Below are positions 4,674-60,931 of a stretch of 64,000 nt of DNA, one piece after another (position 1 is the stretch's first letter; each line of letters starts with the position of its first letter). The notes under the pieces are model-generated. The model saw only the letters and a program-made list of their open reading frames with translations. It was not told the DNA's origin and made no database searches. The DNA is from Povalibacter uvarum (GTDB taxonomy: Bacteria > Pseudomonadota > Gammaproteobacteria > Steroidobacterales > Steroidobacteraceae): the NCBI RefSeq assembly GCF_014202975.1, contig NZ_JACHHZ010000002.1, positions 124,001 to 188,000 of the forward strand, given 5' to 3'. A program made the position numbers and the translations under genes.

Positions 4674-4678
4674 TAGCG

Positions 4679-5641: not shown

Positions 5642-5688
5642 GCGGATCGCATCGTACTGTACTGCGCTGCAAAGGCCAACGTGGGATC

Positions 5689-5752
5689 TATCGTCACTCC
5701 CCGAGAACGCGGGAGTCCATCGGACGGATTCCCGCTTTCGCGGGGATGACGG
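5689..5752. repeat. REP/dRS3-like paired palindrome
   Basis: Two short palindromes in inverted orientation, separated by about 10 bases, occupy most of the 120-bp gap between the diguanylate cyclase start and the DUF4097 gene end. The right-hand unit contains TTCCCGCTTTCGCGGGGA followed by TGACGG; the left-hand unit has TCGTCACTCC and GCGGGAGTCCAT. The same arrangement recurs near 8035-8105 and 42651-42722. Confidence 0.85.
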
Positions 5753-5762
5753 ACGAGCCCCC

Positions 5763-6653: not shown

Positions 6654-7273
6654 AGACGGGTCTCGGGTTGATTCAAGGTCGGAACGCTCACGTGCGACAC
6701 GCTCGCGAGCAACGCCAATTCGTTCTGGTACGTCGACAGCAGCAGTTCCTGCAGCAACGGATGATTCGGGTACTCGGCGAGCGTCGCCGAGATCTCACTG
6801 GCCGTACGACGCAGATCCGCGAGATTGCGTTCGAGCTTCGCCCGCGCGACCGGCGGTAACGTCGCTACCTGGCGCTGGAACTCTGCATCGAGTGCTTCGC
6901 GTGCACGCATGTACTCCGCGCCGAGCAAGGCCTGCCCGCCGAAGCTGGCCTGCTTCACGTCCACCGTGGAAGTCGTCAGCAACTGTTTCTGCGCCGATTC
7001 CCGTGCCAGCTGAATCTTTTCTTCGGCGGACCGCTGAGTAACGACATACGTCGTCACGGACGAGGCGATGACGAGCAGGAAACCAGCAGCAAGCCGCATC
7101 CAGCGGTGCGAAGGCGCTGCGGCAGGAGCCGGCGCCACCGCAGGCGTCGTCGCCTCGATGTCGGCACGAATCCCCGCCCACAGATCCCGCGACGGCGCCA
7201 CATCCCGCGGCAGCGAGGCGAGCGCACGATCGAGGGGATCGTGACCAGGCCCGTTTGTGAAATTACCGCTCAT
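6650..7273 (-). CDS. Membrane-anchored putative anti-sigma factor
   Basis: This 207-residue protein has a short cytoplasmic N-terminus containing DPLDRALASLPRDVAPSRDLW, followed by a Pro/Ala-rich linker and one membrane span (about 60-80). The C-terminal domain is predicted periplasmic and helical, with a LEREL/heptad-like character (about 85-195). The position directly after an ECF sigma gene, the topology and the N-terminal DPLDRALASLP segment all fit an anti-sigma factor that tethers its sigma partner. There is no Cys/His zinc signature of the ZAS type. It is co-translated with the following DUF4097 gene. The assignment rests on context and topology rather than a recognised family motif. 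Confidence 0.65.
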   Translation of the reverse strand: MSGNFTNGPGHDPLDRALASLPRDVAPSRDLWAGIRADIEATTPAVAPAPAAAPSHRWMRLAAGFLLVIASSVTTYVVTQRSAEEKIQLARESAQKQLLTTSTVDVKQASFGGQALLGAEYMRAREALDAEFQRQVATLPPVARAKLERNLADLRRTASEISATLAEYPNHPLLQELLLSTYQNELALLASVSHVSVPTLNQPETRL

Positions 7274-7317
7274 GGCTGCTTCTCTGACTCTGAATCCGAT
7301 CTGCTCTCTGTTCTGAA

Positions 7318-7347
7318 CTAACCGCTAACCGCCAACCGCTAACCGCT
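7318..7347. repeat. 7-bp tandem repeat (CYAACCG)x4 at the sigma-factor stop codon
   Basis: Four consecutive 7-mers (CTAACCG, CTAACCG, CCAACCG, CTAACCG) run to CTT at 7346-7348. The array covers the last codons and the TAG stop of the ECF sigma gene on the minus strand. An almost identical array lies immediately upstream of pyrE (59450-59472). Confidence 0.85.
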
Positions 7348-7941
7348 TCCTTCCAATCCCATTCTTTCCCGCAGCAACTTCCGCCCTCTGTGCAACTGGG
7401 CCTTGCACGTGCCGACCGCGATTCCGAGCATGTCGGCGACTTCCTCGTGGCTGTAGCCATACACGGCTTGCAGCACCAGAACGTGTCGAGCGCCTTCGGG
7501 AAGGCCCGCTATCGCCCGCTCCACGTCCACCACTTCACCCGCATCGAACTCTCCGCCGCCGCCCAACCCGCTTTCCGCGGTCTCCTCGACATCCTCATCG
7601 CTCGTCTCGGTGCGCGTTCCGTGATTCCGGGCATACGTCAGCACCTCGTTCACCGCGATGCGATGCAGCCAAGTGCTGAACGCACTGCGTCCTTCGAACG
7701 CGCCCAGGTTCCGCCATGCCCGCACGAACGTCTGCTGGACGCAGTCTTCCGCGACATCCCGCCGACGACACATGCGCAGGCAGATGCCCATGATGCGGCT
7801 CGAGTGCAGCCGGTACAGCCGCTCGAACGAACGCATGTCTCCCCCACGGGCAGCCTCGACCAGCGCCGTGTCCGAGAGGGTGGGGCGATCAGCGTTCATC
7901 ATCACCGGATTGTCGGCCCTTTTGGCGGCGCCGGATAACAC
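7339..7941 (-). CDS. ECF-type RNA polymerase sigma factor
   Basis: This 200-residue sigma-70 family protein of the RpoE/ECF class has region 2 at about 28-95 (FERLYRLHSSRIMGICLRMC, DVAEDCVQQTFVRAWRN) and region 4 at about 140-195 (LPEGARHVLVLQAVYGYSHE, then MLGIAVGTCKAQLHRGR, the helix-turn-helix). A GTG start at 7941 has GAGG five bases upstream; ATG codons 14-15 codons in (7902/7899) are alternatives with weaker ribosome sites. It is the first gene of an operon with a putative membrane anti-sigma factor and a DUF4097 protein, a layout typical of envelope-stress ECF systems. The stop codon lies inside a 7-bp tandem repeat, so the C-terminal residues could vary with repeat number. Confidence 0.9.
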   Translation of the reverse strand: MLSGAAKRADNPVMMNADRPTLSDTALVEAARGGDMRSFERLYRLHSSRIMGICLRMCRRRDVAEDCVQQTFVRAWRNLGAFEGRSAFSTWLHRIAVNEVLTYARNHGTRTETSDEDVEETAESGLGGGGEFDAGEVVDVERAIAGLPEGARHVLVLQAVYGYSHEEVADMLGIAVGTCKAQLHRGRKLLRERMGLEGSG

Positions 7942-8034: not shown

Positions 8035-8105
8035 CCGTCATTCCCGCGAAAGCGGAATGCATCCTGCCCGAAAAGCATGGATTCCCGCTTTCGCGGGGAT
8101 TACGG
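8035..8105. repeat. REP/dRS3-like paired palindrome
   Basis: Two inverted units face each other: CGTCATTCCCGCGAAAGCGG on the left and GATTCCCGCTTTCGCGGGGA on the right, with about 23 bases between them. The element lies in the roughly 180-bp gap between the end of the first REC-EAL gene and the ECF sigma start. Nothing else is recognisable in that gap. Confidence 0.85.
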
Positions 8106-8121: not shown

Positions 8122-9324
8122 TCAGGCCGTCTTATATCGCGCGTTCCAAGCTCTTACGGCCTCTTCCAGGGCCTGTCCCGGCATCGGGCGGCCGATGAAG
8201 TAGCCCTGGGCGCGATCGCAGCCGACGGAGTCCAGGAAGTCGAGGACCTCCTGGGTCTCGACCCCCTCGGCGCAGGCAGTCAGGCGGAGCTTGTGGGCCA
8301 GCAGGATCATGGTTTCGACCATGGTCCGGGCGTCCTCGTGAGCGAAGACGTCGCGCACGAAGGAGGTATCGATCTTCAGCTCGCTGAACGGCATGAGATA
8401 CAGCTGCTTCAGCGAGGAATAGCCGGTGCCGAAGTCGTCGATCGACAGGCCGAAATTCTTGACGCGCATGCGGGTGAGCACATCCATGGTCGTGCCTGGA
8501 TCGAACATCGCCGCGCTTTCAGTCACTTCGAAAATGATCCGGCGCGCGTCGGCGCCGATCTGCGCGGCCATTCGCGCGACCTGGTCGGGGAGCGCGAGGT
8601 CGTTCAGCAGCTGCGGGGAAAGATTCACGGCCACGGACAGGTGCAGACCGGCGGCATCCCATTCGCGGCATTGCGCGAGCGACACTTCCAGCACCTGTTC
8701 GGTGAGCTTCTTGATCAGCCCGTTGCGTTCCGCGAGCGGAATGAACCTCACGGGTGAAATCATGCCGAGCGTGGGATGTTCCCAGCGCGCGAGCGCTTCG
8801 ACGCCTTCGACGATCCAGCTGCCGGGCGCGACTCGCGTTGCCTTCGGCTGGTAGTGAACGGAGATCTGGCGCTGATCGAGCGCGCTGGTCAGCGCAGCGA
8901 GCGTTACCGGTGTGTCGCTGCGCAGGCAGCGACGCAACGTCGCTTCGAGATCGCCAAGCATGATCGGCTTCTGCAACGCACCGAGCATGTTCAAGCCCTG
9001 CGCTTTGCCGAGTTGCTGCGCCGTCGCGAGAACGCGTTGATCCATGCCGCTGGCAACGAGCACGTGCGCCTTGCTGCCGCGCTCACCGAGATAGCGGAGC
9101 AACTCGATACCGTCGGCACCGGGCATCTGCAGGTCGAGCACCACGACGGTGGGCTGGAAATCCTGGACGGCACGCCGGAACGCATCCGGATCGGTGACGG
9201 CCAGCGCTTCGAATCCCATCGCCGCGGCGGCCTCGGAGATGAACTCGCACAGGTCTGGCTGATCGTCGATCACCAGCAGCTTGTTGGCCAGGTCAAGCAA
9301 CTCGGATCTCCCGGTCGAGCACAT
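8122..9324 (-). CDS. Response regulator with EAL domain (c-di-GMP phosphodiesterase), module A
   Basis: This 400-residue protein has an N-terminal receiver (about 15-130; acceptor Asp64 in VVLDLQMPGADG) and a C-terminal EAL domain (about 150-395). The catalytic set looks complete: EALARW, NLSPQ, FEVTES, IDDFGTGYSSL, ELKIDTSF, AEGVET and QGYFIGRPM. It should hydrolyse c-di-GMP. The ATG at 9324 overlaps the end of the upstream hybrid kinase by 32 bases. A TTG at 9300, giving an 8-base overlap, is the more usual coupling geometry. Either way the kinase and phosphodiesterase are translationally linked, so the kinase is the likely phosphodonor. The protein is a paralogue of the REC-EAL at 16777-17976. 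Confidence 0.93.
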   Translation of the reverse strand: MCSTGRSELLDLANKLLVIDDQPDLCEFISEAAAAMGFEALAVTDPDAFRRAVQDFQPTVVVLDLQMPGADGIELLRYLGERGSKAHVLVASGMDQRVLATAQQLGKAQGLNMLGALQKPIMLGDLEATLRRCLRSDTPVTLAALTSALDQRQISVHYQPKATRVAPGSWIVEGVEALARWEHPTLGMISPVRFIPLAERNGLIKKLTEQVLEVSLAQCREWDAAGLHLSVAVNLSPQLLNDLALPDQVARMAAQIGADARRIIFEVTESAAMFDPGTTMDVLTRMRVKNFGLSIDDFGTGYSSLKQLYLMPFSELKIDTSFVRDVFAHEDARTMVETMILLAHKLRLTACAEGVETQEVLDFLDSVGCDRAQGYFIGRPMPGQALEEAVRAWNARYKTA

Positions 9325-11701
9325 GTCGCACGCGCATGGCCAGTTCTTCGTTTCTGTAGGGCTTGTGGATCACGTCGGCCGCGGAGATGCCGCCGCTGAG
9401 GACGGCGCTGTCCGCGTAACCGGTCGTGAACAGCACTTCGATATTCGGGCGCATTTCGCGCGCGCGACGCGCAAGCTCGGGACCGAGCGTGCCGCCGGGC
9501 ATCATGACGTCGGTGAACAGCAGGTCGATGTGTTCCGAGCCGCTGAGGATGTTCAGTGCACGCTCGGCATTCGGCGCAGCGAGCGCGCGATAGCCGAACT
9601 GGGTCAATGCAGTCACGACCGTATCGCGCAGATCCGCATCGTCCTCGACCACCAGGATCGTTTCATGTCCCGTGGGCGCAATGCGCGTGATGATCGTGTC
9701 TTCGCGAACGACCTGTTCTTCGCGACAGCGCGGCAACAGGAGCTGCACGGTCGTGCCGCGACCTAGCTCGCTTGCGATCGTGGCGACGCCGCCCGCCTGC
9801 TCGGTGAAGCCGTGCACCATCGCAAGACCAAGGCCGCTGCCCTTGCCTGATTCCTTCGTCGTGAAGAACGGCTCGAACACGCGCGACAGCACTTCGGGCT
9901 CGATGCCCACGCCGTTGTCGCTGACGCTGACCGATACATATTCGCCCGGCTCGATCTGCGGATGCGTCAGCGTGAAGCTCGCGTCGAGGCGCACGTTCTG
10001 GGTCTTCACGGTGAGCCGGCCGCCGCGAGGCATCGCATCACGTGCATTGATCGCGAGGTTGAGGATCGCATTCTCGAACTGACCGGCATCGACACGGGTG
10101 TGCCACAGGTCGTGCGCCTGCACCATGCGTACTTCGATCGACTCGCCCAGGGTGCGCTGCATGAGGTCGGCGAGGCCCGTGAGCTGCCGATTCAGATCGA
10201 CGACATTGGGGTCGAGAATCTGACGACGCGCCAGCGCCAGCAGGCGTCTCGTGAGATCCGCACCGCGCATAGCTGCGCGCATAGCGGTGTGAACTTTGCG
10301 CGCAAGATTCGGGTTGTCATCCACGCCGCGCTCGAGGAGCTGCAGGTTACCGAGTACGACACCGAGCAGGTTGTTGAAGTCGTGTGCAATGCCGCCAGTC
10401 AGCTGGCCGATCGCCTCCATCTTCTGCGCCTGCAGCAGCCGCGCTTCGAGACGCTTGATCTCGGTCAGGTCGTAAGAGATCGCGAAGAAGCCCCGCGGAT
10501 CGCCCTTCGTTCCATCGGCGCGTTGCGCGAACTCGGGCACCAGGTGCATCTGCCAGTCGCGTGCGCGACCGTTGCGAGCAGTGCCGTGCTTGATCGTATC
10601 CGCTTCGCCTCGCAGCGCCGCGTCGACGTGTCCGGCAATCAATGCGTACTCTTCGGGCGTGTACAGCGTGTTCAACGGGCGGCCGATGCACTGCGCACGC
10701 GGCAGGTTCGCGAACTCTTCCACCGCCTGGTTGACGTACGTGATGACGCGCTGGCGATTGATGTACATGACCAGCGTCGGCATCGCGTTGAGCGTCAGCT
10801 CGTAGAAGTCACGCGTCTCGATGACCTGGCGTTCCGCGATGACGCGATCGGTGATGTCCTGGATCGTGCCGTGCAGGCGGATCGCCTCGCCGTTGCGGCG
10901 ATCCGCTTTGACGATGAGCCGGACCCAGATATTGCGGCCGCGCGCACTGGTGAGCGGCAGCTGCAGAGTGGTGATCTCGCCTGTGCTCCCGACGTGAGCC
11001 AGCACACGCTGCAACTCGGCACGATCGGCGGGCGCGAAGAACGACTGGCAGCGCTCGGTGTCGAGCGGCGCGCCCAGCGGCAGGTCGTGAATCGCGTAAA
11101 CGGAATCGGTCCAGAAGATGCGCTGGGTGGAAACGTCCATCTCCCAGCCGCCGACGAGTGCAGTCGCCTGCATGTCGCCGAGCAGACTGTCGAGGCGCAC
11201 GCGCTCGCTGACGTCACGGAACGTCAGCACCATCCCGCCGGGACCGCTTTCGGGCGTGATCGGGACGACGCGGTATTCGACGGGGCGACGCTTGCCGTCT
11301 TTGCGACGGAGCATCGCGCCGACGCCGGTCATGATGTCGGTGGTGCCGCTGCGGCGGCGCACGACACGGCTCGACCGCTCATCCGAATCGTTGATGAGCT
11401 GTCGGTAGTTCTTGCCGAGGATTTCGTCGGGACTCTGGTACCCGAGCAGTTTGACGGCCGCTGGATTCGCGTACCGGACCGCTTCCGTGTGGTCGACTTC
11501 GAGGACGCCTTCGCCCGAGGCTTCGACGATGGCGCTGTCGCGGCGGATGGTGATTCCCGCGCGGATGAGTTCCCTTCGCAGATCACGCACCCGCCGTCGT
11601 TGCCAGAGGATGGCGCAGACGGCGGGTACGACGATGAGCAGGACGGTCGCGATGATCCCTGCGATCACACTCGGCTCGAGCACTGGTTGCAGGAAGCTCA
11701 C
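9293..11701 (-). CDS. Membrane-anchored PAS hybrid histidine kinase, module A
   Basis: This 802-residue kinase has an N-terminal membrane segment (about 10-32), three PAS domains (about 45-160, 170-290, 295-425) and a HisKA dimerisation domain with GGIAHDFNNLLG (His440). These are followed by a HATPase domain (about 540-655; DNGVGIEP, FEPFFTTKESGKGSGLGL) and a C-terminal receiver (about 680-795; Asp731 in FTDVMMPGG). The HDFNN H-box and the FFTTK motif are typical of the NtrB-like PAS-kinase/receiver family. It overlaps the downstream REC-EAL gene. Its closest relative in the window is the kinase at 17963-20683, which has no membrane segment and four PAS domains. The signal sensed is unknown. 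Confidence 0.93.
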   Translation of the reverse strand: MSFLQPVLEPSVIAGIIATVLLIVVPAVCAILWQRRRVRDLRRELIRAGITIRRDSAIVEASGEGVLEVDHTEAVRYANPAAVKLLGYQSPDEILGKNYRQLINDSDERSSRVVRRRSGTTDIMTGVGAMLRRKDGKRRPVEYRVVPITPESGPGGMVLTFRDVSERVRLDSLLGDMQATALVGGWEMDVSTQRIFWTDSVYAIHDLPLGAPLDTERCQSFFAPADRAELQRVLAHVGSTGEITTLQLPLTSARGRNIWVRLIVKADRRNGEAIRLHGTIQDITDRVIAERQVIETRDFYELTLNAMPTLVMYINRQRVITYVNQAVEEFANLPRAQCIGRPLNTLYTPEEYALIAGHVDAALRGEADTIKHGTARNGRARDWQMHLVPEFAQRADGTKGDPRGFFAISYDLTEIKRLEARLLQAQKMEAIGQLTGGIAHDFNNLLGVVLGNLQLLERGVDDNPNLARKVHTAMRAAMRGADLTRRLLALARRQILDPNVVDLNRQLTGLADLMQRTLGESIEVRMVQAHDLWHTRVDAGQFENAILNLAINARDAMPRGGRLTVKTQNVRLDASFTLTHPQIEPGEYVSVSVSDNGVGIEPEVLSRVFEPFFTTKESGKGSGLGLAMVHGFTEQAGGVATIASELGRGTTVQLLLPRCREEQVVREDTIITRIAPTGHETILVVEDDADLRDTVVTALTQFGYRALAAPNAERALNILSGSEHIDLLFTDVMMPGGTLGPELARRAREMRPNIEVLFTTGYADSAVLSGGISAADVIHKPYRNEELAMRVRHVLDREIRVA

Positions 11702-11737
11702 CGCTACCCTTTAGTTACGTCCCTATCCTGCCCGGCA

Positions 11738-12463
11738 TCATGCCTTTGGGCCGGGCTCCCTGCCTGCGTACCAGTTCACGGCATATTGCATAAGCTGTGC
11801 CGAGGTCCGCAAAGAGAGCTTGCGCTTGATTCTCTGGCGGTGCGATTCGACCGTTTTCACGCTCAGGTTGAGCGCTTCTGCGGTCTGGCGCGTGGACAAA
11901 CCCTTACCGATCATGTGCAGAACCTGCAGTTCCCGGTTCGTCAGGCTGTCGATCGGGTTGGCGGAAATGTAGGCGCCGCCCGATGCGAACTTCTCGATCA
12001 TGCTGTTGCCGACGGCTTCGCTCACGTAGATGCCGCCTTCCAGCACGCGACGCAGTGCGATCAGGAACTGATCGGACGCGGCCTGCTTCATGATGTAGCC
12101 GTTCGCGCCGGCCGACAGCATGCGCTCGGCGTAGATCGCCTCGTCGTGCATCGACAGCACGAGCAGCGGCAGCGACGGATAGTGGGCGCGCGCGTCCTTG
12201 ACGAGTTCGAGTCCGTCGCCCTGCTTGAGCGACACATCGACGATCACGGCATCGGGTTCGAGTTCGCGGATCAGCGACTTCGCTTCGCGAGCCGTCTCGG
12301 TTTCGCCGCACACTTCGAGATCTGTTTCCGCCTCGATCAGGCGGCGCAGACCCTGGCGCACGATGGGATGGTCGTCCACGATCAGCACGCGACGCTTGCG
12401 GTCCTTCGGAACGCTCGTCGGCGGCTTGTGGACGGTCTTGAACAGTGTAGGCCCGAGGCTCAT
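11738..12463 (-). CDS. NarL/LuxR-family response regulator, module A
   Basis: This 241-residue regulator has a receiver domain (about 24-140; DD at 30-31, acceptor Asp76 in VIVDVSLKQGDG, Lys in YIMKQA) and a C-terminal LuxR helix-turn-helix (about 175-235; LTNRELQVLHMIGKGLSTRQ, SVKTVESHRQRIKRKL). The ATG at 12463 is chosen because GGAG lies seven bases upstream; the open frame extends 18 codons further without a better site. It lies between a HisKA_3 kinase (upstream, same strand) and the hybrid kinase/EAL pair (downstream, same strand). It is therefore the natural partner of the HisKA_3 kinase. It is paralogous to the regulator at 14401-15063. Confidence 0.93.
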   Translation of the reverse strand: MSLGPTLFKTVHKPPTSVPKDRKRRVLIVDDHPIVRQGLRRLIEAETDLEVCGETETAREAKSLIRELEPDAVIVDVSLKQGDGLELVKDARAHYPSLPLLVLSMHDEAIYAERMLSAGANGYIMKQAASDQFLIALRRVLEGGIYVSEAVGNSMIEKFASGGAYISANPIDSLTNRELQVLHMIGKGLSTRQTAEALNLSVKTVESHRQRIKRKLSLRTSAQLMQYAVNWYAGREPGPKA

Positions 12464-12574
12464 TGCATTACTCCATGAAAAGGCGTGGCAGCCTTCGCTG
12501 CAGCTACGCTTGGTCAATCACTCAACTCAAAATCGAACATCCTGATCGTGCTCTCACGATCCGTGATGAGGAAG

Positions 12575-14047
12575 CTAGAGAGGCGCGCGCGATTTGCGCA
12601 CCTTGCCGACACGTACGCCCGCTGCGGTTTCGAGCGGACATTCGCACACGACCTTCGTACCGCTCGGCTCCGCTTCCTCGAAACTCACGTCCCCGCCAAG
12701 CATGCGGGCGCGATAGCACATGATCTTCAAACCCATTCCCGACGCATCCAGTGCGTCCTCCGGCATGCCGACGCCGTCGTCGGTGATCGACAGCCGCACC
12801 TTAGCGCGCGCGGTCGTGAGGTGCAGTCGTATTGACCGCGCCTTTCCATGCCGAACCGCGTTGCGCACTGCTTCCTGCGCAATGCGATACAAGTGATTCG
12901 CGAGCTCCGCACCGAGCGCGCTCTGTCCGCCCAGACGATGCGTAAAGACGGTCGGCACGCCATAAAGTTCTGTCGCGTGCATCGAAAGTCCTTCAAGCGC
13001 GTCCTGCAGCCCACCGCGTTCGAGATTCACGGGCGAAAGCCCGCGCGCCAACGCGCGAGTGCTTTCGATCGCGTTGTTCACGAGACGCGTGATGCCCTCG
13101 ATTTCCGGCAATATCGGCGGATATTCCGTCGCCAATCGCCCGGCGAGTCCGCGCAGCATCAGCGCGACACCCGTCAGTTCCTGACCCAGCCCATCGTGCA
13201 GATCGTTGCCGATGCGGTACTGCTCTCGATTGACCGCCTGCAACACCGCACGTTCCAAATGCTTGCGCTCGCTCACGTCCTGGAGCACGAGCAAGCTCAG
13301 TGCGCGGCCTGCGATATCCAGTCCCGACAACACTCCCGCGGCAGCGAAGTGACCACCGTCGCGACGTCGTGCATCGAACTCCACGGTCATCGACCCGCTG
13401 CCTGCATGCGACAGCATCTGCCAACGCTCGCGCTGTCCGAACGGCCAGCCCGCGAGCGTGCTCATCTCTCGTCCGTTCAGCTCGCCGCGCACGTAGCCGA
13501 ACATCGCATCGAACGCGGGGTTCGTCAGATCGATCACACCTCGCTCGTCGATGAGCGCGACGCCTTCCAGCATCGAATCGATCATTCGCGACTGCGTCGC
13601 GATCACCCGCTCCGCGTGCACCTGCTGCGTCGTTTCCGACCCGTGCACGATGAGTCCGATCACATCCTGCGCGCGACGGATCGCACTGACCCGCACGTCG
13701 AAGTACCGCGTGTGGCCCGGTGGATCCTCGAGCTCGCCCGTGTACGCGTCGGGCTTGCCCGTCGCCAGCACACCTCGCATCGTCGTCAGCGCGCGTTCCC
13801 GCACATGCGTCGGGAGATACTCGCTGACATGCGCACCTTCGAGCTGTTCGACGGTGCGGCCCGCTGTGCCGCGATTCGCGAACAGCGTCTTCAGGTCCCG
13901 ATCGAGTACCACCACCAGCGCGGGCAGGGTCCCGATGAACTCCCGCAGTGCCTGCGTCGAACCCTGGAGGCGCGCCGCCAACTCAGCCTGATGATCATCG
14001 GCCGGTACGTCTGACACTTCGGAAGTCGCTAAGGTCGTCTTGCTCAC
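12575..14047 (-). CDS. PAS sensor histidine kinase of the HisKA_3 (NarX/DegS) type, module A
   Basis: This is a soluble kinase of about 490 residues with two PAS domains (about 30-145 and 150-265). The HisKA_3 dimerisation/phosphoacceptor domain contains NDLHDGLGQELTG (His284), followed by a HATPase domain (about 385-475; LYRIAQEAVRNAVRHG, DDGVGMP, GMGLKIMCYRARMLGG). No membrane segment is visible. I chose the GTG at 14047 (GCGAGA upstream) over the longer GTG at 14152, which has no ribosome binding site and adds a basic, repetitive extension. HisKA_3 kinases pair with NarL/LuxR regulators, and one lies directly downstream (11738-12463). An inverted repeat at 14194-14223 lies upstream. Confidence 0.88.
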   Translation of the reverse strand: MSKTTLATSEVSDVPADDHQAELAARLQGSTQALREFIGTLPALVVVLDRDLKTLFANRGTAGRTVEQLEGAHVSEYLPTHVRERALTTMRGVLATGKPDAYTGELEDPPGHTRYFDVRVSAIRRAQDVIGLIVHGSETTQQVHAERVIATQSRMIDSMLEGVALIDERGVIDLTNPAFDAMFGYVRGELNGREMSTLAGWPFGQRERWQMLSHAGSGSMTVEFDARRRDGGHFAAAGVLSGLDIAGRALSLLVLQDVSERKHLERAVLQAVNREQYRIGNDLHDGLGQELTGVALMLRGLAGRLATEYPPILPEIEGITRLVNNAIESTRALARGLSPVNLERGGLQDALEGLSMHATELYGVPTVFTHRLGGQSALGAELANHLYRIAQEAVRNAVRHGKARSIRLHLTTARAKVRLSITDDGVGMPEDALDASGMGLKIMCYRARMLGGDVSFEEAEPSGTKVVCECPLETAAGVRVGKVRKSRAPL

Positions 14048-14193
14048 GGGTCTCGCGGTCGTCGGTCTTGAAGCGAGCGCCCGGAAAGCCGGCCGACGCA
14101 GCGCCCTCAGCACACTGTCGCGGTTCTGCGAACTGCAAAGCGTTACAGCCACTTAGGCTGCATTTCACCGACAGGCATGTTGTTGTAGTCCGT

Positions 14194-14223
14194 CATTAGG
14201 GGGTATCAGCCAATCCCCTAATG
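14194..14223. promoter_or_regulatory. Inverted repeat CATTAGGGG-N12-CCCCTAATG
   Basis: This is a perfect 9-bp inverted repeat with a 12-base spacer that includes GTATCAGCCAAT. It lies 147 bp upstream of the chosen start of the module A HisKA_3 kinase, in the roughly 350-bp gap between that kinase and the next regulator gene. The GGGG/CAATCCCC arrangement resembles an imperfect repeat in front of the module B kinase (15163-15190). A second short motif, GGGGCAATACCCC, occurs at 14379-14391 in the same gap. A binding site for one of the NarL-type regulators is an inference; no T-tract supports a terminator. Confidence 0.55.
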
Positions 14224-14400
14224 TCTGGGGTGGCGCGACCGTGTTTGCCCGGATGGCGGTATTGCATCGCGTTTCAGGCGACGACTGGGAAGGGGCCCGT
14301 GGAAAGCGCCGGCCAATTCGTGCGGGCAAGCACGTACGTGTCGAATGGGTACTTACGTGGCAGCCCGGACCCCGAGCCGGGGCAATACCCCTCGCGGGCG

Positions 14401-15063
14401 CTATTCGCCGCCCTTACCCGATACCCATTGCGTGGCGTAACGGATCAGCTCGCTCGTGGACCGGAGGTTGAGCTTCTCGCGCATGTGGCGCCGGTGGGCG
14501 TCCACGGTCTTCATCGACAGGTCGAGCTGCTGGGAGATCTCACGGGTGCTGATACCGGCCCCAATGAGCTTGAAGACCTCCAGCTCGCGCTCCGTGAGCG
14601 CGGAGACGGGGTCTTCGTCCGAACCCGGGACGCGCCCCCGGGCGACCTGGCTCAGGAGCCTCTCGCCCATTGCGGCGCTGACGTGCTTCTGGCCGCGGGC
14701 AACCTTGCGCAACGCGCCGAGGAAATCCGTACCGGCCACGTTCTTCATGACATAACCACTGACTCCCAGTCGCAGGAGTCGCTCCGCGTAGAGCGCCTCT
14801 TCCTGCATGGAGAGCACCAGCACGCGGACGTCAGGGTGGTTTTCACGGATCCAGCGAACGAGTTCGACGCCGTCGTCGGCACCCAGTGCCAGATCGACCA
14901 CGGCCACGTCCGGCTCGCGCCCATCGATCGCCGATCGCGCGTCGCCGGCCGAAGAGGCTTCTGCGATCAGCTCGAAATCAGGCTGCCCGGCGAGCAGCTG
15001 CTTCAGCCCTTCGCGGACGAAGGGGTGATCGTCGACGATCGCAATGCGTGTCTGATCCGTCAT
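14401..15063 (-). CDS. NarL/LuxR-family response regulator, module B
   Basis: This 220-residue protein has a receiver (about 5-120; DD at 11-12, acceptor Asp57 in VAVVDLALGADDG, Lys in YVMKNVAG) and a LuxR-type helix-turn-helix (about 150-212; LTERELEVFKLIGAGISTRE, SMKTVDAHRRHMREKL). It is clearly paralogous to the regulator at 11738-12463. Both share the LSM(H/Q)(D/E)EA(I/L)YAER segment after the acceptor and the WV/WY-type C-terminus. It is divergently transcribed from the REC-PAS-HisKA_3 kinase at 15300, its likely partner, across a 236-bp control region. Confidence 0.93.
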   Translation of the reverse strand: MTDQTRIAIVDDHPFVREGLKQLLAGQPDFELIAEASSAGDARSAIDGREPDVAVVDLALGADDGVELVRWIRENHPDVRVLVLSMQEEALYAERLLRLGVSGYVMKNVAGTDFLGALRKVARGQKHVSAAMGERLLSQVARGRVPGSDEDPVSALTERELEVFKLIGAGISTREISQQLDLSMKTVDAHRRHMREKLNLRSTSELIRYATQWVSGKGGE

Positions 15064-15162
15064 GGTTGCTCCGCAACGCCCTCAGTTTGTCCGTTGTTCC
15101 CTCACTGCCTCGATTGCGCGGGGCACCCTCGCCAGCGCAACTGCAGCGTACGCCCCCAGTCT

Positions 15163-15190
15163 GGGGTTGCACCAGTCGCCGGCAATCCCC
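15163..15190. promoter_or_regulatory. Imperfect inverted repeat GGGGTTGC...GGCAATCCCC
   Basis: The arms are GGGGTTGC (15163-15170) and GGCAATCCCC (15181-15190), with about 10 bases between them. The repeat lies in the divergent control region between the module B LuxR regulator and the REC-PAS-HisKA_3 kinase, about 110 bp before the kinase start. It shares the GGGG/CAATCCCC layout with the repeat at 14194-14223. A role as regulator binding site is inferred from position and similarity only. Confidence 0.45.
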
Positions 15191-15299
15191 ATTTTCCACA
15201 GTCCCGGCACAGTGATAGCTTTGTGCGTCATCGCCTGGGGGTACGTGGTTGCCGACCGGCGGCGCCGGCCGGAAACCCGCGGAAGGTCATCGCGAACGC

Positions 15300-16760
15300 A
15301 TGAAAAAGGAATCCGCCGCCTTGCGCTTCGTTCTGCTCGAGGACGATCCGAACGATGCCGAGCTGATCCAGCTCGAGCTGGCACGCAATGGCGTGCAGGT
15401 CGAGTGGTCGCACGTTGCCTCCAAACCCACGTTCCTCGATGCGCTGCAGGCCGGCGACAAGCCCGACCTCGTACTCGCGGACTACACGCTGCCCGGGTTC
15501 GACGGCCTCGCGGCGTTGAAGCTCGTTCTCGAGCTCTGTCCCGACGTGCCCTTCATCTTCGTTTCCGGCTCGCTCGGTGAAGAACGCGCGATCGAAGCAC
15601 TGAAGAGCGGCGCCACCGACTACGTGCTCAAGGATCGGCTGCAACGCCTGCCCACCGTGGTCAATCGCGCGCTGACCGAAGCCCGCGAGCGACGCGAGCG
15701 ACGTCAGGCTGAGGCCGCGCTGGAAGAACAACGCCTGCTGCTTGGCACGCTCATCGACAGCCTTCCCGAGATTGTCTACGCGGTCGATACCGAAGGCCGG
15801 CTCACCGTAGTGAATCGCGCGCTCCTCGACACACTGCGCAAGAAGCGCGAGAACGTGATCGGCAAGCGGCTCTCCGAGGTATGGCAGGAAGAGACGATCG
15901 TCGAAATCGAGGCGCAGGCGGCGAACACCATTCGCACCGGCCGGTCGCTGACGGATCAGGAACGCGCGTGGATCACAGCCGACGGCTCCGTCCGCTGGTT
16001 CACATTCACGCACGTGCCTCTGAGAGATCACGGCACAGTCAACGGACTCGTGTGCACCGTGCGTGAGATCACCAACCAGAAAGCGCTCGAGCAGGAGATC
16101 CTCGAGATCTCGAATCGCGAGCAGCGCCGTCTCGGCAGCGACCTGCACGACGGTCTCGGCCAGGAACTGACCGGACTGTCATTGCTGCTGAAAGGCCTGG
16201 AAATGCAGCTGTCGCGCGAAGCGCAGCAATACACCGCGCAGATCACGAAGATCACGGATCTGCTCGCGCATGCGATCCAGAGCACGCGTTCCCTTGCACG
16301 CGGTCTCGCGCCCGTGAACCTCGAGCGCGGCGGTCTGCCGGAAGCACTGAAGCACCTGGCGGCGCGCTGCACGGACATGTACAGCCTTCAATGCAGCTTC
16401 TCTTACGGCGGACAGAAGCTGCCGGATCTCGAAGAAGGCGCGGCGACGCACTTGTATCGCATCGCGCAAGAGGCGACGACGAATGCAGCTCGTTATGCGC
16501 GCGCCAAAGCGATCGACATCGATCTGCGCGCGAGCGGCCGCAAACTGCAGCTCACGATTACGGACGACGGCATCGGCCTTTCAGCCGGCCTCGCCCAGGG
16601 CCGACCCGGCATGGGCCTCAAGATCATGGAGTACCGCTCGCGCATGCTGGGCGGCACGATCAACTTCGACGAACCGGGAAAAGGCACGCGAATCGTGCTC
16701 TCCGCGCCGCTGCATCTGTTGCGGCAGACGAAGCCGAAGAGGTTGGCGGTGGGGGGATGA
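15300..16760 (+). CDS. Receiver-PAS-HisKA_3 histidine kinase, module B
   Basis: This soluble protein of 486 residues starts with a receiver domain (about 9-130; DD at the start of LLEDDPNDAE, acceptor Asp61 in LADYTLPGFDG, KDR in YVLKDRLQRLP). One PAS domain follows (about 150-265), then HisKA_3 with SDLHDGLGQELTG (His283) and a HATPase domain (about 390-475; LYRIAQEATTNAARYA, DDGIGLS, GMGLKIMEYRSRMLGG). Having the receiver in front of the kinase means its own activity is probably set by an upstream kinase, perhaps the hybrid kinase at 17963. The ATG at 15300 is chosen because the longer TTG-started frame adds 17 unconserved residues. The kinase core is very similar to module A (12575-14047). 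Confidence 0.9.
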   Translation: MKKESAALRFVLLEDDPNDAELIQLELARNGVQVEWSHVASKPTFLDALQAGDKPDLVLADYTLPGFDGLAALKLVLELCPDVPFIFVSGSLGEERAIEALKSGATDYVLKDRLQRLPTVVNRALTEARERRERRQAEAALEEQRLLLGTLIDSLPEIVYAVDTEGRLTVVNRALLDTLRKKRENVIGKRLSEVWQEETIVEIEAQAANTIRTGRSLTDQERAWITADGSVRWFTFTHVPLRDHGTVNGLVCTVREITNQKALEQEILEISNREQRRLGSDLHDGLGQELTGLSLLLKGLEMQLSREAQQYTAQITKITDLLAHAIQSTRSLARGLAPVNLERGGLPEALKHLAARCTDMYSLQCSFSYGGQKLPDLEEGAATHLYRIAQEATTNAARYARAKAIDIDLRASGRKLQLTITDDGIGLSAGLAQGRPGMGLKIMEYRSRMLGGTINFDEPGKGTRIVLSAPLHLLRQTKPKRLAVGG

Positions 16761-16776
16761 GGAGAGGGCCCGAGCC

Positions 16777-17976
16777 CTATTTCTTCCTGACCACCGGCAC
16801 CAGCGTGTGATCCGCCCCATTCCACACATCGATGAACTGCTCCATCTCGCTGGCGGGCATCGCCGATGCGATGAAGTCGCCCTGGAGCGCGTCGCAGCCG
16901 GCCTGCTCGAGCATTTCGAACACGGGTGAGGTTTCGACGCCTTCCGCGCAGACGGTCAGCGAAAGGTTGTGGGCGAGGTCGATAATCGCGCGCACGACCG
17001 TTGCGGCGGCGCGGCCCGTGGGAATCTCGGAAATCAGCAGTCGATCGATCTTCACTTCACTGAACGGCATCTTGTAGAGCTGCGTCAGCGAAGACGTGCC
17101 TGTGCCGAAATCGTCGAGCGACAGGCCGACGCCGCGCACGCGCAGGCGCGTGAAGATGTCCATCACGAGATCCGGATCGTCGAGCGAGGCCGCTTCCGTC
17201 ACTTCGAGCGTGAGCTGCTCGGCGGTCGCATCGAATTCGCGCAGGATCAGGCCGAGGCGGTCCGGGAACTCCAGGTCCTGGACGAGGCGCGGCGACAGAT
17301 TCACGGCGACACCGAGATCGAGGTTGCGCTGGCGCCAGTGGCCGATCTGGCGAATCGCGTCGGTCAGCACGAAGTCCGTGACTCCGACGATCAGTCCTGA
17401 GCGCTCGGCCATCGGCAGGAACTCGCCCGGCGGCAGCAATCCCAGACGCGGGTGGCGCCAGCGGACGAGCGCTTCGGCCGTGCGCACCTGCCAGTCGTTG
17501 TTCGTACGAACGACCTTGGGCTGGTAGTGCACGACCAGCTCATGTTCGTCGATTGCCCGGGCCAGCTCATCGACAGTGAGGCGCTCACCGGGTTCGAGGT
17601 GGCGCGAGAGCAGCGATTCGATTTCCTCGAGCATCGCAGGCTTCTGCAGCGTGCCGAGCATCTTGAGCCCGAGCTGATCGCCGAGCTGGCGCGCGCTCAC
17701 GATCACGCGCTGGTCCATGCCGCTGGCGAGCAGGATTCCGGCCGTCGTGCCGATTCGTCCGAGGTATCGCAGGGCCTCGATGCCATCCATTCCGGGCATC
17801 TGCAGATCGAGCAGGATCAGCGCCGGCTGGCGCTGCGAAAGCTGTTCACGGAAGGCTTCCGCGCTGTCGGCAGTAATGACTTCGCAGCCGACGCCTTCGC
17901 CGACCTGGACGATCAAATCGAGGAAATCGACTTCATCGTCGACTGCCAGCAGCAGATTGCGCTCACGCCGGGACAC
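16777..17976 (-). CDS. Response regulator with EAL domain (c-di-GMP phosphodiesterase), module B
   Basis: This 399-residue REC-EAL protein has receiver acceptor Asp57 (LLDLQMPGMDG). Its EAL domain shows EALVRW, NLSPR, LEVTEA, LDDFGTGTSSL, EVKIDRLL, AEGVET and QGDFIA, so the metal- and substrate-binding residues of active phosphodiesterases appear to be kept. NLSPR in place of NLSPQ and GTGTSS in place of GTGYSS are small departures from the module A copy. The start overlaps the end of the upstream hybrid kinase by 14 bases, the same coupled arrangement as module A. The gene is convergent with the REC-PAS-HisKA_3 kinase, 16 bases away. Confidence 0.93.
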   Translation of the reverse strand: MSRRERNLLLAVDDEVDFLDLIVQVGEGVGCEVITADSAEAFREQLSQRQPALILLDLQMPGMDGIEALRYLGRIGTTAGILLASGMDQRVIVSARQLGDQLGLKMLGTLQKPAMLEEIESLLSRHLEPGERLTVDELARAIDEHELVVHYQPKVVRTNNDWQVRTAEALVRWRHPRLGLLPPGEFLPMAERSGLIVGVTDFVLTDAIRQIGHWRQRNLDLGVAVNLSPRLVQDLEFPDRLGLILREFDATAEQLTLEVTEAASLDDPDLVMDIFTRLRVRGVGLSLDDFGTGTSSLTQLYKMPFSEVKIDRLLISEIPTGRAAATVVRAIIDLAHNLSLTVCAEGVETSPVFEMLEQAGCDALQGDFIASAMPASEMEQFIDVWNGADHTLVPVVRKK

Positions 17977-20683
17977 TTCTCATCTCCTCATTCTCATCCA
18001 GGATCGTCCGCACCTGGCGCGCCAGATCTTCCACGCGATACGGCTTGGTGAGCAACTGCAGTGTGCCGTCCAGCATGCCCCGATGAAGGATCGAGCTTTC
18101 GCTGAAGGCTGACGTCATCAGGATCTTCAGTCCGGGACGTCGTTCACGCAATTTGTCCACCAGCATCGGGCCGGGCAACCCGCCCGGCAGCATCACATCC
18201 GAAAAGACCAGCGCGATATCAGTATGTTGCATGAATTGCTCCAAAGCCTGATACCCATTGGCCGCCTCCAGCACCCGATAGCCGAGGCTATTCAGGATAT
18301 CGACCGCAGTCGAGCGGACTTCAGCATTGTCTTCAACAACGAGAATTGTTTCCCAGCCTGACGGCATGTCGGAGGAGGGAGCGGCATCGCGCGGGAGGGC
18401 TTCAATGTCGCCCGGACAGCGGGGCAGAAACAATTGCACTGTAGTGCCCTTGCCCACCGTGCTGGTGATCCGGACGTGCCCGCCGGACTGGCGCACGAAG
18501 CCATAGACCATGGGCAGACCGAGGCCGCTGCCCTTGCCCACGTCCTTGGTCGTGAAGAACGGCTCGAACACGCGCTTCAGCGTGTCGGGCGGCATGCCGG
18601 TCCCGGTGTCGAGGACCTCCAGCACGGCGTATTCGCCGGGCTGCAATGAGCCTTCGCCGTTGAAACCCGAAGGTTCGACAGGCTGCGCACCCACGATCTC
18701 GTTGCGCGTACTCACGATGATCGCGCCGCCCTGAGGCATTGCATCGCGGGCATTGATGACCAGGTTCAGGATCGCGTTCTCGAGCTGGCCCGGATCGATC
18801 TTCACCGGCCACACCAGCGGCGCGCAGACCTGGCGGATTTCGATATCGCCGGTCAGGGACCGACGCAGCAGGTCGTACATGCCGCCGATCAGCGTGCCGA
18901 GGTCGACGACACGAGGCTCCAGCACCTGCTGGCGCGCGAATGCCAGCAGCCGGCGCGTGAGATCGGCGCCTCGCATGGCCGCCTTCATTGCCGTTTCAGC
19001 CTGATGCAGCAGACGCGGACTCTCCCGCAGCGACCGTGACAGCAGCTGCATGTTGCCGACGATGACAGCGAGGAGATTGTTGAAATCGTGCGCGATACCG
19101 CCGGTCAGCCGGCCGACCGCCTCCATCTTCTGGCTCTGTCGCAGCTCGGCTTCGAGCTGATGCTTCTCGGTGACGTCGCGAGCTGCGACGAAGCAGCCCT
19201 GCACTTCGCCGGCTTCATTGAAGTGCGGTACGAAGATGCCTTCGAGATCGACCAGCTGGCCGTCGGGACTGCGGAACTGCCCCTGCGATTCCACCATCCG
19301 CCCGTCGAGCGCCGCGCGAAAGCTTGGCCCGATGGCCGCGTAGCGACGCTCGCCGATCACATCGCCCACGGGCTGGCCGCGGGTAGACGCCAGCGGCAGC
19401 CGGAAGAACTGCTGGAACTGCCGGTTCGCGTACACGATGCGCTCGTCGCGATCGAGGTACGAAACGTACAGCGGCAGCGAGTCGAGAATCGTGCCGTAGA
19501 AATCCTGGCTGCGGCTCAATGCTTCTTCGGCCTCGATCTGCGCGGAGATGTCGCTGATCGATCCTGACAGTCGCAGGGGCCGGCCTGCAGCATCGCGATC
19601 CGCCTGACCCCGCATCCGGCACCACAGCACCGAGCCGCTGCGCGTAACCACGCGGCAGCGCAGATCGAGCTGCACCTGGTTCTCGAGATGACGGCGGATC
19701 TTGTGCAGCACAAGGGTGCGGTCATCGGCGTGCAGCACGTTCTGGAACGCGTTGAACGTGTCAGGAAAGTCCTCGTGCTCGTAGCCGATGATTTCCCGGA
19801 ACCGCGATGCGTACCAGACGTGGCCGGTGAGCAAGTTCCACTCGTACATGCCGTCGGACGTACCGCGGACTGCGCGTTCCCAACGATCCTGCACTTCCGC
19901 TGCAAGCTGCATGTCGCGCTTGCGCCGCGTGATGTCGCGCAGCACGCCAACCATGCGCAGCGCTTTGCCATGCCCATCGCGACGAACGACGTCAGCTCTC
20001 GCGGCGAACCATCTTGTCTCGCCCGACGCAGTCACCAGCGAGTACTCGCATTCGAAGTGCGGCGTAGCGCCGTGGAAATGCTGTTCGAACTGCTCGAGCA
20101 CCGACTGCTGATCTGACGGCAGCATCAAGCGGTCCGACAGACTCTCCCGCTTGAGCAGTTGCTGCGGATCGACGCCGAGCGACGTGCGCCAGTGGTCGTT
20201 GTAGTAGACCTCGTCGCGTTCGACGTTCCATTCCCACATCGACAGGGCACTGGCATCCATCGCGACTTGAAGGCGCGCTTCGCTCGTTCGCAACGACTCG
20301 CGTGTGCGGACCACGCGGGTGAGGTCTTCAAAGGTCAGGACGAGGTGGGGAGTTTCACCGGACCCTTCGAAAGGCTGCACGGCGACCCGGACCGGAATCG
20401 CACGACCATCGCGTGCGACGAGAACGATCTCGACAGTGCACGCTCTCGCGGAGCGCAAGGCCTGGTGGAACTGCTGCATCGAGTCCGCGTCGGTCGCGTC
20501 GCTGCAGAGAGAGAGCACGTGGCTGGCCAGGACCTCTTCGCGCTCATAGCCGGTCAGTTGGAGGAACGCCTTGTTGGCATGCGCAGGCCGATCGAAATCG
20601 CGCGCAGGCACGACCAGCACGCCCTGCGTCACCGCATCGAGCATGGCCAGACTGCCGGGAGGCGCTGACGAGACCGCCGTCAT
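17963..20683 (-). CDS. Soluble PAS hybrid histidine kinase with four PAS domains, module B
   Basis: This kinase of about 906 residues has four PAS domains (about 12-125, 130-250, 255-380, 388-510) and HisKA with GGIAHDFNNLLA (His532). A HATPase domain (about 632-760; DTGTGMPP, FEPFFTTKDVGKGSGLGL) and a receiver (about 785-900; Asp829 in FSDVMLPGG, KP in LLTKPYRVED) follow. No signal or membrane segment is present, unlike the module A kinase. The ATG at 20683 starts a natural PAS protein (MTAVSSAPPGSLAMLDAV). The open frame reaches 20821, but that extension is low-complexity leader. Translation is coupled to the downstream REC-EAL gene, so c-di-GMP hydrolysis is the likely output. Confidence 0.92.
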   Translation of the reverse strand: MTAVSSAPPGSLAMLDAVTQGVLVVPARDFDRPAHANKAFLQLTGYEREEVLASHVLSLCSDATDADSMQQFHQALRSARACTVEIVLVARDGRAIPVRVAVQPFEGSGETPHLVLTFEDLTRVVRTRESLRTSEARLQVAMDASALSMWEWNVERDEVYYNDHWRTSLGVDPQQLLKRESLSDRLMLPSDQQSVLEQFEQHFHGATPHFECEYSLVTASGETRWFAARADVVRRDGHGKALRMVGVLRDITRRKRDMQLAAEVQDRWERAVRGTSDGMYEWNLLTGHVWYASRFREIIGYEHEDFPDTFNAFQNVLHADDRTLVLHKIRRHLENQVQLDLRCRVVTRSGSVLWCRMRGQADRDAAGRPLRLSGSISDISAQIEAEEALSRSQDFYGTILDSLPLYVSYLDRDERIVYANRQFQQFFRLPLASTRGQPVGDVIGERRYAAIGPSFRAALDGRMVESQGQFRSPDGQLVDLEGIFVPHFNEAGEVQGCFVAARDVTEKHQLEAELRQSQKMEAVGRLTGGIAHDFNNLLAVIVGNMQLLSRSLRESPRLLHQAETAMKAAMRGADLTRRLLAFARQQVLEPRVVDLGTLIGGMYDLLRRSLTGDIEIRQVCAPLVWPVKIDPGQLENAILNLVINARDAMPQGGAIIVSTRNEIVGAQPVEPSGFNGEGSLQPGEYAVLEVLDTGTGMPPDTLKRVFEPFFTTKDVGKGSGLGLPMVYGFVRQSGGHVRITSTVGKGTTVQLFLPRCPGDIEALPRDAAPSSDMPSGWETILVVEDNAEVRSTAVDILNSLGYRVLEAANGYQALEQFMQHTDIALVFSDVMLPGGLPGPMLVDKLRERRPGLKILMTSAFSESSILHRGMLDGTLQLLTKPYRVEDLARQVRTILDENEEMRSVPA

Positions 20684-20938
20684 AGACCCCGCGTGGTTCC
20701 TCTGCGTGCAGGGGATACCCGCCCGCTCGTGGTGCTGAATGACATATCGCCTGTGAACTTGAATGGGATCGCCACCGCTCGCTCTCCGTTCTCCCAAAGA
20801 GACCGGGGGACATTCGCTCAAGGCGTGCGATCAGGGCGCGAGAGTGGCGGAAAACGCTGGCGGAAACTGTGTTCTGCAGCGCGTCGCGGAGGGAAGAAGG
20901 GAATGCCGGGTGGAGGGTCCCCCAGCGCGGAAGGGGCT

Positions 20939-42650: not shown

Positions 42651-42722
42651 CTATCGTCACTCCCGCGCAGGCGGGAGTCCATGCCTTGATCCGGATGGAT
42701 TCCCGCTTTCGCGGGAATGACG
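42651..42722. repeat. REP/dRS3-like paired palindrome
   Basis: The left unit ATCGTCACTCCCGCGCAGGC... and right unit TTCCCGCTTTCGCGGGAA face each other. The element fills the 91-bp gap between the convergent aldehyde dehydrogenase and the secreted unknown gene. It is the cleanest copy of the family also seen at 5689 and 8035. Confidence 0.88.
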
Positions 42723-60907: not shown

Positions 60908-60931
60908 ATCCCCGCGAAAGCGGGGCTCCAT
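60905..60931. repeat. Single REP-like palindrome
   Basis: GTCATCCCCGCGAAAGCGGG followed by GCTCCATC is one unit of the paired palindromes seen at 5689, 8035 and 42651. It abuts the hairpin between the DUF4124 and dut genes. Confidence 0.75.

Follow-up and report, generated by a model that had tools for sequence, protein, structure and literature searches.

Here we describe a locus of eight signalling genes in a 64-kb stretch of DNA (hereafter the window) that forms part of contig C2 of the 6.32-Mb Steroidobacter genome G000. The genes fall into four classes, named below as EAL (REC-EAL response regulator), HHK (hybrid kinase), LUX (NarL-type REC-GerE regulator) and HK3 (HisKA_3 kinase), each with an A and a B member. 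An earlier note on this DNA had taken them for two parallel four-gene modules, the second a rearranged copy of the first that arose by ancient duplication. We consider it rather probable that they constitute a single composite Steroidobacter signalling locus and not two copies of a module, that the genes have separate histories, and that their products act as the network proposed below. The eight genes are as follows.

8122-9324, minus strand: EAL_A, REC-EAL response regulator, predicted cyclic di-GMP (c-di-GMP) phosphodiesterase (Pfam REC and EAL; motifs; RocR alignment)
9293-11701, minus strand: HHK_A, hybrid kinase with an N-terminal transmembrane (TM)-like segment, PAS domains and HisKA-HATPase-REC, no Hpt found (Pfam, tree)
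11738-12517, minus strand: LUX_A, NarL-type REC-GerE regulator (Pfam; tree clade of 24 rows)
12575-14152, minus strand: HK3_A, PAS-PAS-HisKA_3-HATPase kinase (Pfam)
14401-15063, minus strand: LUX_B, NarL-type REC-GerE regulator (Pfam; tree clade of 15 rows)
15300-16760, plus strand: HK3_B, receiver-bearing REC-PAS-HisKA_3-HATPase kinase (Pfam; alternative TTG start at 15249)
16777-17976, minus strand: EAL_B, second REC-EAL response regulator, catalytic motifs intact (Pfam; B-type clade of 16 rows)
17963-20821, minus strand: HHK_B, PAS-rich hybrid kinase without a TM-like segment, no Hpt found (Pfam, tree)

All eight open reading frames (ORFs) named in the earlier note are present at their places, and Pfam bears out its four classes side by side (REC-EAL, PAS-HisKA-HATPase-REC, REC-GerE and HisKA_3-HATPase, two of each). 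Within each class the A and B members are homologous at 41-48% identity, with BLASTP values of 47% over 386 amino acids (aa) for the REC-EALs, 41% over 670 for the hybrid kinases, 44% over 212 for the LuxR-type regulators, and 48% over 221 for the HisKA_3 kinases. Both EAL proteins consist of an N-terminal receiver followed by EAL only, carry the EAL, N, ExTE, DDFGTG, K and EGVE motifs together with the receiver D and K, and share with both hybrid kinases the intactness of their catalytic and phosphoacceptor motifs. EAL_A aligns to the RocR structure 3sy8 (E 3.6e-51); its catalytic residues were aligned to RocR and MucR, and those of EAL_B to MucR. Judged by architecture and residues, both qualify as putative phosphodiesterases of the RocR/PvrR REC-EAL type. 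Pfam found no Hpt domain in any of the four kinases HHK_A, HHK_B, HK3_A and HK3_B.

When the 6.32-Mb genome was searched with EAL_B at E<=1e-70, EAL_A and EAL_B were the only matches, and EAL_A at E<=1e-40 gave five, of which, among the four listed, only EAL_A and EAL_B span both REC and EAL; the pairing of the two at one site is not attributable to chance. Two of the eight HisKA_3 kinases of the genome also sit at this locus. The overlap of hybrid-kinase stop and REC-EAL start was correctly noted for both modules, amounting by ORF call to 32 nt in A (HHK_A stop at 9293, EAL_A ATG at 9324) and 14 nt in B (HHK_B stop at 17963, EAL_B GTG at 17976). It is not special to them, since the REC domain starts at most 25 nt from the kinase ORF end in 29 of the 43 adjacent HHK/REC-EAL pairs collected, including 19 of 33 outside Steroidobacter.

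Comparison genomes (G handles) were sampled at one per species, many of them fragmented, and included 13 other Steroidobacter genomes; f1 denotes the family of the window genome, and f3, f4, f6, f7 and f10 other families. Rows for the trees were kept by score (LUX 59/85, EAL 78/118, HK3 43/77, HHK 61/86), a cut that removed L105 and, of the 14 Steroidobacter genomes, nine from the EAL, HHK and HK3 trees and eight from the LUX tree. The HisKA_3 tree was built on an alignment of the kinase core (43 rows). Some Steroidobacter genomes carry a third REC-EAL lineage (L097, L098; loci L094-L096), and the third, distant REC-EALs of G003 and G009, which were excluded from the EAL tests of topology, group with a Chitinimonas prasina copy (support 100/99), suggesting a separate origin for these two. 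Row L002 was excluded from the corresponding LUX tests.

The REC-EAL tree (78 rows) groups EAL_A with families f3, f4, f6 and f7 in a clade of 13 rows (97/85), and EAL_B with f3, f6 and f7 and with G018, G036, G025, G501, G528, G028 and G029 of the own family in one of 16 rows (95/94). The hybrid-kinase tree (61 rows) places HHK_B with G501, G528 and G036 (99/91) and then with G038 (91/86), and HHK_A with G028 (100/99) and then with the f4 genomes G039, G053 and G383 (95/78). For the LuxR-type regulators (59 rows), the A clade comprises 24 rows (98/97), including f3 and f6, and the B clade 15 rows (98/95), all from the own family, with nine sampled genomes outside Steroidobacter (G028, G029, G023, G025, G036, G027, G511, G501 and G528). 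A concatenated HHK and REC-EAL tree likewise joins B with G501 and G528 (99/95).

Approximately unbiased (AU) tests of a single A-plus-B clade of Steroidobacter sequences gave p=7e-53 for EAL, p=0.0017 for HHK and p=1.1e-4 for LUX. With the G028 and G029 copies added, a grouping that was picked after inspecting the trees and that we deem the fairer form, p was 0.0014 for EAL, 1.4e-7 for LUX and 0.0185 for concatenated HHK and REC-EAL, the last again a rejection. Joining the whole LuxR A and B clades was not rejected (p=0.37), so LuxR A and B can be ancient paralogues. For HisKA_3, neither the grouping of HK3_A with LUX_A-adjacent HK3s (p=0.274) nor that of HK3_B with REC-type HK3s (p=0.462) was rejected, and therefore both placements may hold.

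Taken from these sequences, the A/B split appears to predate the genus for REC-EAL, hybrid kinase and LuxR, and a piecewise history is supported for these three of the four classes. The phylogenetic check of A/B sisterhood envisaged in the earlier note thus places the two copies in different external clades in the best trees for REC-EAL, LuxR and hybrid kinase. A duplicated block should leave A and B as sisters in every gene and at the same node, a pattern that was not found and that was rejected at the level of Steroidobacter for EAL, LUX, and concatenated HHK and EAL. Of the proposed ancient duplication, the homologous pairs and, for three classes, their great age stand, but the copying of a four-gene block, with module B as its rearranged product, is unsupported, since A and B belong to different older clades for three classes.

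Outside the genus, loci were read over stretches of up to about 20 kb, and their gene order favours a piecewise origin of the locus. G038 (f3) has the order HHK, B-type REC-EAL, A-type REC-EAL and sigma factor, and G450 (f6) carries a B-type then A-type REC-EAL tandem in the same order. These direct tandems, with one REC-EAL of each ancient type, are located as follows.

L070 2551-5052: REC-EAL direct tandem of G038
L241 3844-6285: REC-EAL direct tandem of G450

In G038 about 120 nt separate an HK3-LUX_A pair from the end of its contig, and the HHK begins at another contig end, an arrangement compatible with one broken operon. G501 shows HK3-LUX_A-HHK-EAL-sigma-antisigma-DUF4097-REC-GGDEF, which is the order of module A, yet its HHK and REC-EAL are of B type; G528 has the same order and the same B-type pair, plus an extra 479-aa HisKA_3-like ORF, a weak match, between LUX_A and HK3 (L234 11141-12577). 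In the loci read from G023, G025, G036, G027, G511, G501 and G528, LUX_B never had two complete HHK/REC-EAL pairs for company. G028 carries EAL_B, HK3_B, LUX_B, LUX_A, HHK_A and EAL_A, with no HK3_A or HHK_B in the stretch read. In G029, EAL_B and HK3_B lie on one contig and LUX_B, LUX_A, an HHK_A remnant and EAL_A on another; the remnant, a 167-aa frame that lies between LUX_A and EAL_A, retains HHK_A only as an isolated receiver (L067 12101-12601). In G027 and G511 a HisKA-HATPase-REC-Hpt kinase precedes LUX_B-LUX_A, with no REC-EAL pair in the locus read. Because the B-type pair of G501 and G528 sits in a LUX_A operon, and given the other synteny, module B does not behave like a heritable unit.

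The ancestral operon probably ran HisKA_3 kinase, LuxR_A, hybrid kinase, REC-EAL(s), extracytoplasmic function (ECF) sigma operon and REC-GGDEF, with tandem B-type and A-type REC-EALs, and LuxR_B with its receiver-bearing HisKA_3 kinase would have been a separate old neighbour. The Steroidobacter lineage would then have kept and interleaved both REC-EAL/hybrid-kinase lineages and both LuxR lineages, so that two modules seem to be present where there are none. In this manner adjacent signalling genes of like kind can pass for a duplicated module though each gene or pair has its own history.

Across the Steroidobacter locus the outputs are fixed and the sensors drift. REC-EAL orthologues of both types occur in all 13 other genomes, on the same contig in nine, and a gene-by-gene reading finds LUX_B, HK3_B, EAL_A and EAL_B each in 13/13 congeners. 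HK3_A and LUX_A are each found in 12 of the 13 (G007 carries both): HK3_A is gone from its site in the single-contig genome G009, and in G008 the site expected for LUX_A coincides with a break between two contigs. Eleven of the 13 have HHK_B, which is missing at its site in G006, where EAL_B and kduD lie about 114 nt apart; in G008 the contig stops within EAL_B, which limits this count. The sigma operon is present in nine of 13 congeners and missing in G004, G005, G009 and G013. These losses of individual genes at identified sites across the genus (HK3_A in G009, HHK_B in G006, the sigma operon in four congeners) make the interleaved locus a tractable set for studying how regulators continue to function once their kinases are lost or replaced.

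Median identities to the window, over 11-13 length-filtered loci, are 93% for LUX_A, 86% for LUX_B, 84% for EAL_A, 81% for EAL_B, 80% for HK3_B, 65% for HK3_A, 64% for HHK_A and 62% for HHK_B. None of the eight proteins is better conserved than LUX_A (88-95% identity in 11 loci of the genus); the kinases diverge and drop out, and LUX_A hardly changes. A single TM-like segment occurs in HHK_A of the window, of G028 and of the four congeners tested, whereas the two f4 relatives tested have four. No such segment occurs in HHK_B of the window or of five among the six congeners tested, the sixth (G004) having one in an overlong frame, and the relatives of HHK_B have none (G528, G038), one (G501) or two (G036). 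The difference in membrane segments described in the earlier note is therefore real, but its loss from HHK_B cannot be polarised, with none in G038, one in G501 and four in f4.

The inverted strand of HK3_B, its receiver, and its one PAS domain against two in HK3_A are likewise as described; the implied recent gain of the receiver is not, because relatives in other genera have it. Receiver-bearing relatives occur in G511 and in G023 (a REC-HisKA_3 protein without PAS), and the receiver falls inside the aligned span of the HK3_B matches in G028, G027 and G501. The nearest PDB match of the receiver is LvrB (E 6.6e-32), and D, K and H motifs are present in HK3_B. A strict Asp motif occurs in HK3_B itself and in five of eight relatives, the remaining three having Asp at the same receiver position in a different context, and the Lys motif occurs in all nine.

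G009 and G028 each have a single HisKA_3 match, HK3_B, versus eight in G000, and both retain LUX_A and LUX_B; in the LuxR tree, LUX_A of G009 has an end branch of 0. Since HK3_A is lost or replaced in G009, G028, G027 and G511 while LUX_A is kept, these data suggest that kinases other than HK3_A can feed LUX_A, with HK3_B as the foremost candidate. The 11 GerE matches in G009 (10 above the cut-off) weaken the step from HK3_B to LUX_A, as non-HisKA_3 kinases may serve such regulators. When the GerE loci of G009 and G028 were scored with the LUX profile, only LUX_A and LUX_B exceeded 250 bits, the next full-length REC-GerE proteins reaching 53 and 38 bits. HK3_B could even be a shared receiver-gated hub, the hybrid kinases phosphorylating its receiver and the REC-EALs together and HK3_B driving both NarL regulators, an idea that we regard as rather doubtful. 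If it were true, G009 and G028 would run two regulators from a single HisKA_3 kinase in the absence of HK3_A, and would represent a natural experiment in a network that holds its output while shedding sensors.

HisKA_3 kinases phosphorylate NarL-type regulators, REC-EALs hydrolyse c-di-GMP, and REC-GGDEF proteins synthesise it. In the network that we propose, the hybrid kinases would control the REC-EAL phosphodiesterases and probably the HK3_B receiver, HK3_A and HK3_B would feed the NarL regulators LUX_A and LUX_B, and a neighbouring REC-GGDEF cyclase would oppose the REC-EALs. The locus would thereby form a single network, one arm of which acts through c-di-GMP and the other through transcription, and in which sensors are often lost or replaced and LUX_A is fixed. 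The link between c-di-GMP output and transcriptional output suggested in the earlier note is plausible. According to PMC5863495 and PMC13269768, Leptospira LvrB is phosphorylated by the hybrid kinase LvrA and activated via its own receiver; because the HK3_B receiver resembles that of LvrB, we propose that a hybrid kinase of the locus may gate HK3_B. As in LvrA-LvrB, a hybrid kinase adjoins a kinase with a putative controlling receiver, and HK3_B has an N-terminal receiver joined to the kinase core with receiver Asp and Lys kept. Unlike LvrB, HK3_B has a PAS domain and a HisKA_3-type core, and it probably acts on a NarL regulator and not on the anti-sigma protein LvrC.

The best reading of the locus as a whole is that it resembles the Pseudomonas Roc/Pvr-Rcs circuits and is a variant of known LuxR/REC-EAL composite circuits. 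As described in PMC3842833 and PMC2696094, P. aeruginosa RcsB and the phosphodiesterase PvrR oppose each other from one locus with two sensors, and Roc is similar. RcsCB/PvrSR (PAPI-1, cupD) likewise brings four two-component genes together (two sensors, the LuxR/HTH regulator RcsB and the REC-EAL PvrR) and has a joint transcription and c-di-GMP output, which is here predicted from genes. Its sensors are the hybrid PvrS and the Hpt-bearing RcsC, whereas here we find HisKA_3 kinases and Hpt-less hybrid kinases, as well as two LuxR-type regulators, two REC-EALs, a REC-GGDEF protein and an ECF sigma operon. RocS1-RocA1-RocR shares a REC-EAL of RocR architecture beside a LuxR-type regulator and HK-REC sensors, but a single sensor drives both regulators there (PMC3842833, PMC2696094). 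In kinase type, the G027 and G511 loci, with their HisKA-REC-Hpt kinase before two LuxR-type regulators, come nearer to Roc than the window does. No fimbrial genes, such as the cup genes adjacent to or controlled by Roc/Rcs-Pvr, are present among the nine neighbour proteins scanned. LuxR-type and REC-EAL regulators do occur with sensor kinases at one locus here, but the nearest Hpt domain found belongs to the 147-4673 kinase (in G027 and G511 a sensor with Hpt does lie beside LuxR), and because of this lack the locus may be said to work like Roc/Rcs-Pvr without being a member. None of the 12 literature matches listed, out of 1,922, mentions Steroidobacter, which is weak evidence of absence.

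Several observations weigh against a composite locus with separate gene histories and the proposed network. The backbone of the HisKA_3 core tree (43 rows) did not resolve, and sisterhood of HK3_A and HK3_B was not rejected when Steroidobacter copies only were joined (AU p=0.0915). The test for HHK alone with the G028 and G029 copies was borderline (p=0.060). In the concatenated HHK and REC-EAL tree the f4 pairs no longer join HHK_A, leaving an open fork; G042 is A-type in the EAL tree and outside in the HHK tree, and f10 is nearer A in the HHK tree (90/89) and outside in the EAL tree. No HHK was seen on the 10.9-kb contig bearing the G450 REC-EAL tandem. According to PMC3842833, moreover, PvrR needed no phosphorylation and showed no contact with PvrS or RcsC, which by analogy makes switching of the REC-EALs by the hybrid kinases doubtful.

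With regard to origin, a recent duplication of module A within the genus, followed by inversion and domain change, would account for the four shared classes and the shared HHK/REC-EAL overlap. It is nevertheless rejected by the trees and AU tests except for HisKA_3 (the Steroidobacter-only values given above for EAL, HHK and LUX, and those with G028/G029 for EAL and LUX, with HHK at 0.060), and we regard it as extremely improbable. Moving the duplication of the four-gene block much further back, to a forerunner of the whole family or order, with one or other copy then lost piecemeal except in Steroidobacter and its nearest relatives, agrees with the proximity of the A and B clades in the REC-EAL, HHK and LuxR trees and with the failure to reject joined LuxR clades (p=0.37) or HisKA_3 A plus B (p=0.0915). 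We think this unlikely, as the stretches of up to about 20 kb that were read from the nine non-Steroidobacter genomes with LUX_B never contained two complete HHK/REC-EAL pairs, the B-type pair lies inside the LUX_A operon in G501 and G528, and REC-EAL was duplicated alone, in tandem, behind one HHK in G038. Alternatively, hybrid-kinase/REC-EAL pairs may have been transferred horizontally, the B pair being a xenologue and not an old paralogue; the occurrence of REC-EAL is patchy (43 of 196 genomes of the order at E<=1e-75) and the two genes are often adjacent (43 pairs collected), but the same B-then-A tandem order in two families and the repeated position next to the sigma operon point to descent in place, so that such transfer seems improbable.

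With regard to function, the genes could encode insulated parallel pathways that merely share a place, with HK3_A acting on LUX_A, HK3_B on LUX_B and each HHK on its own REC-EAL. Within the genus HK3_A adjoins LUX_A and HK3_B is divergent from LUX_B, and the HHK and REC-EAL trees pair alike for Steroidobacter, G028, G501, G528, G036, G038 and f4, though not for G042 and f10. Against insulation, G009 (on a single contig, with a LUX_A end branch of 0) and G028 have HK3_B as their only HisKA_3 kinase, yet both LuxR-type regulators, and in G027 and G511 the kinase that precedes LUX_B-LUX_A is of the Hpt-bearing kind; the first objection is weakened by the 11 GerE matches in G009, as non-HisKA_3 kinases may serve LuxR-type regulators. 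Insulated pathways are on balance a possibility that we hold to be somewhat unlikely, and we prefer the single composite locus with its one network.

The extent of 8122-20683 given in the earlier note falls short of conserved partners at 147-7941, which are listed below.

7339-7941, minus strand: ECF sigma factor, conserved neighbour in 9/13 congeners (neighbour scan)
6650-7273, minus strand: presumed anti-sigma protein, named by position only, no Pfam match (ORF list, neighbour scan)
5763-6653, minus strand: DUF4097 protein, conserved neighbour (neighbour scan)
4679-5641, minus strand: predicted REC-GGDEF diguanylate cyclase with GGEEF motif (neighbour scan, motif)
147-4673, plus strand: giant 1508-aa PAS-HisKA-HATPase-REC-REC-Hpt kinase with many PAS domains (neighbour scan)

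The ECF sigma gene also lies beside the locus in G501, G528, G015, G026, G531, G045 and G058, and REC-GGDEF matches adjoin LUX_A loci in G501, G528, G015, G023, G032, G511, G027 and G029. The giant kinase, whose gene is convergent with that of REC-GGDEF, has the sole Hpt domain among the nine neighbour proteins scanned and is a possible Hpt source for the locus. Its kinase-REC-Hpt core is 44-75% identical (for some matches over part of the length only) in G008, G007, G029, G009, G005, G501 and G032, and it adjoins REC-GGDEF in several genera. The B side of the locus is bordered by genes for a kduD-like short-chain dehydrogenase/reductase (SDR), KduI and UxaC, which presumably have a role in uronate use.

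Two non-coding features were delimited in the locus.

14194-14223, no strand assigned: non-coding element, conserved, preceding the HK3_A-LUX_A operon, with arms CATTAGGGG and CCCCTAATG on either side of 12 nt
15064-15299, no strand assigned: intergenic region between the divergent genes LUX_B and HK3_B, containing a conserved CAATCCCCATTTTCCAC-like element

The 14194-14223 element, a candidate operator or promoter, is clear in 10 of the 11 genus loci compared (including L064) and degenerate in L052, and as TATTAGGGGATT it is retained upstream of LUX_A in G009, where HK3_A is gone. By eye, the CAATCCCCATTTTCCAC-like element can be made out in 12 of the 13 loci compared within the genus; it is degenerate in G009. 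The strict pattern WWWRGGGGATTGSC occurred once in the genome, equal to the reversed control, and with at most one mismatch gave two matches in the window versus 0.47 expected, two being reached in 10 of 100 shuffles. A LuxR regulon defined by the element upstream of HK3_A was accordingly rejected, which also counts against our reading, and no regulon is claimed.

A palindrome ATTCCCGCTTTCGCGGGRATKACG resembling repetitive extragenic palindromic (REP) sequences has five copies with at most three mismatches in the window versus 0 expected (5728-5751, 8036-8059, 8081-8104, 42699-42722 and 60904-60927), two of which lie in opposite orientation upstream of the ECF sigma gene. In G010 the LUX_B/HK3_B divergent promoter region contains a 45-bp tandem repeat of 5.6 copies with 96% matches (L062 8837-9088); the repeat finder was applied to that region alone, and by eye the array is seen only in G010 among the 13 congener regions.

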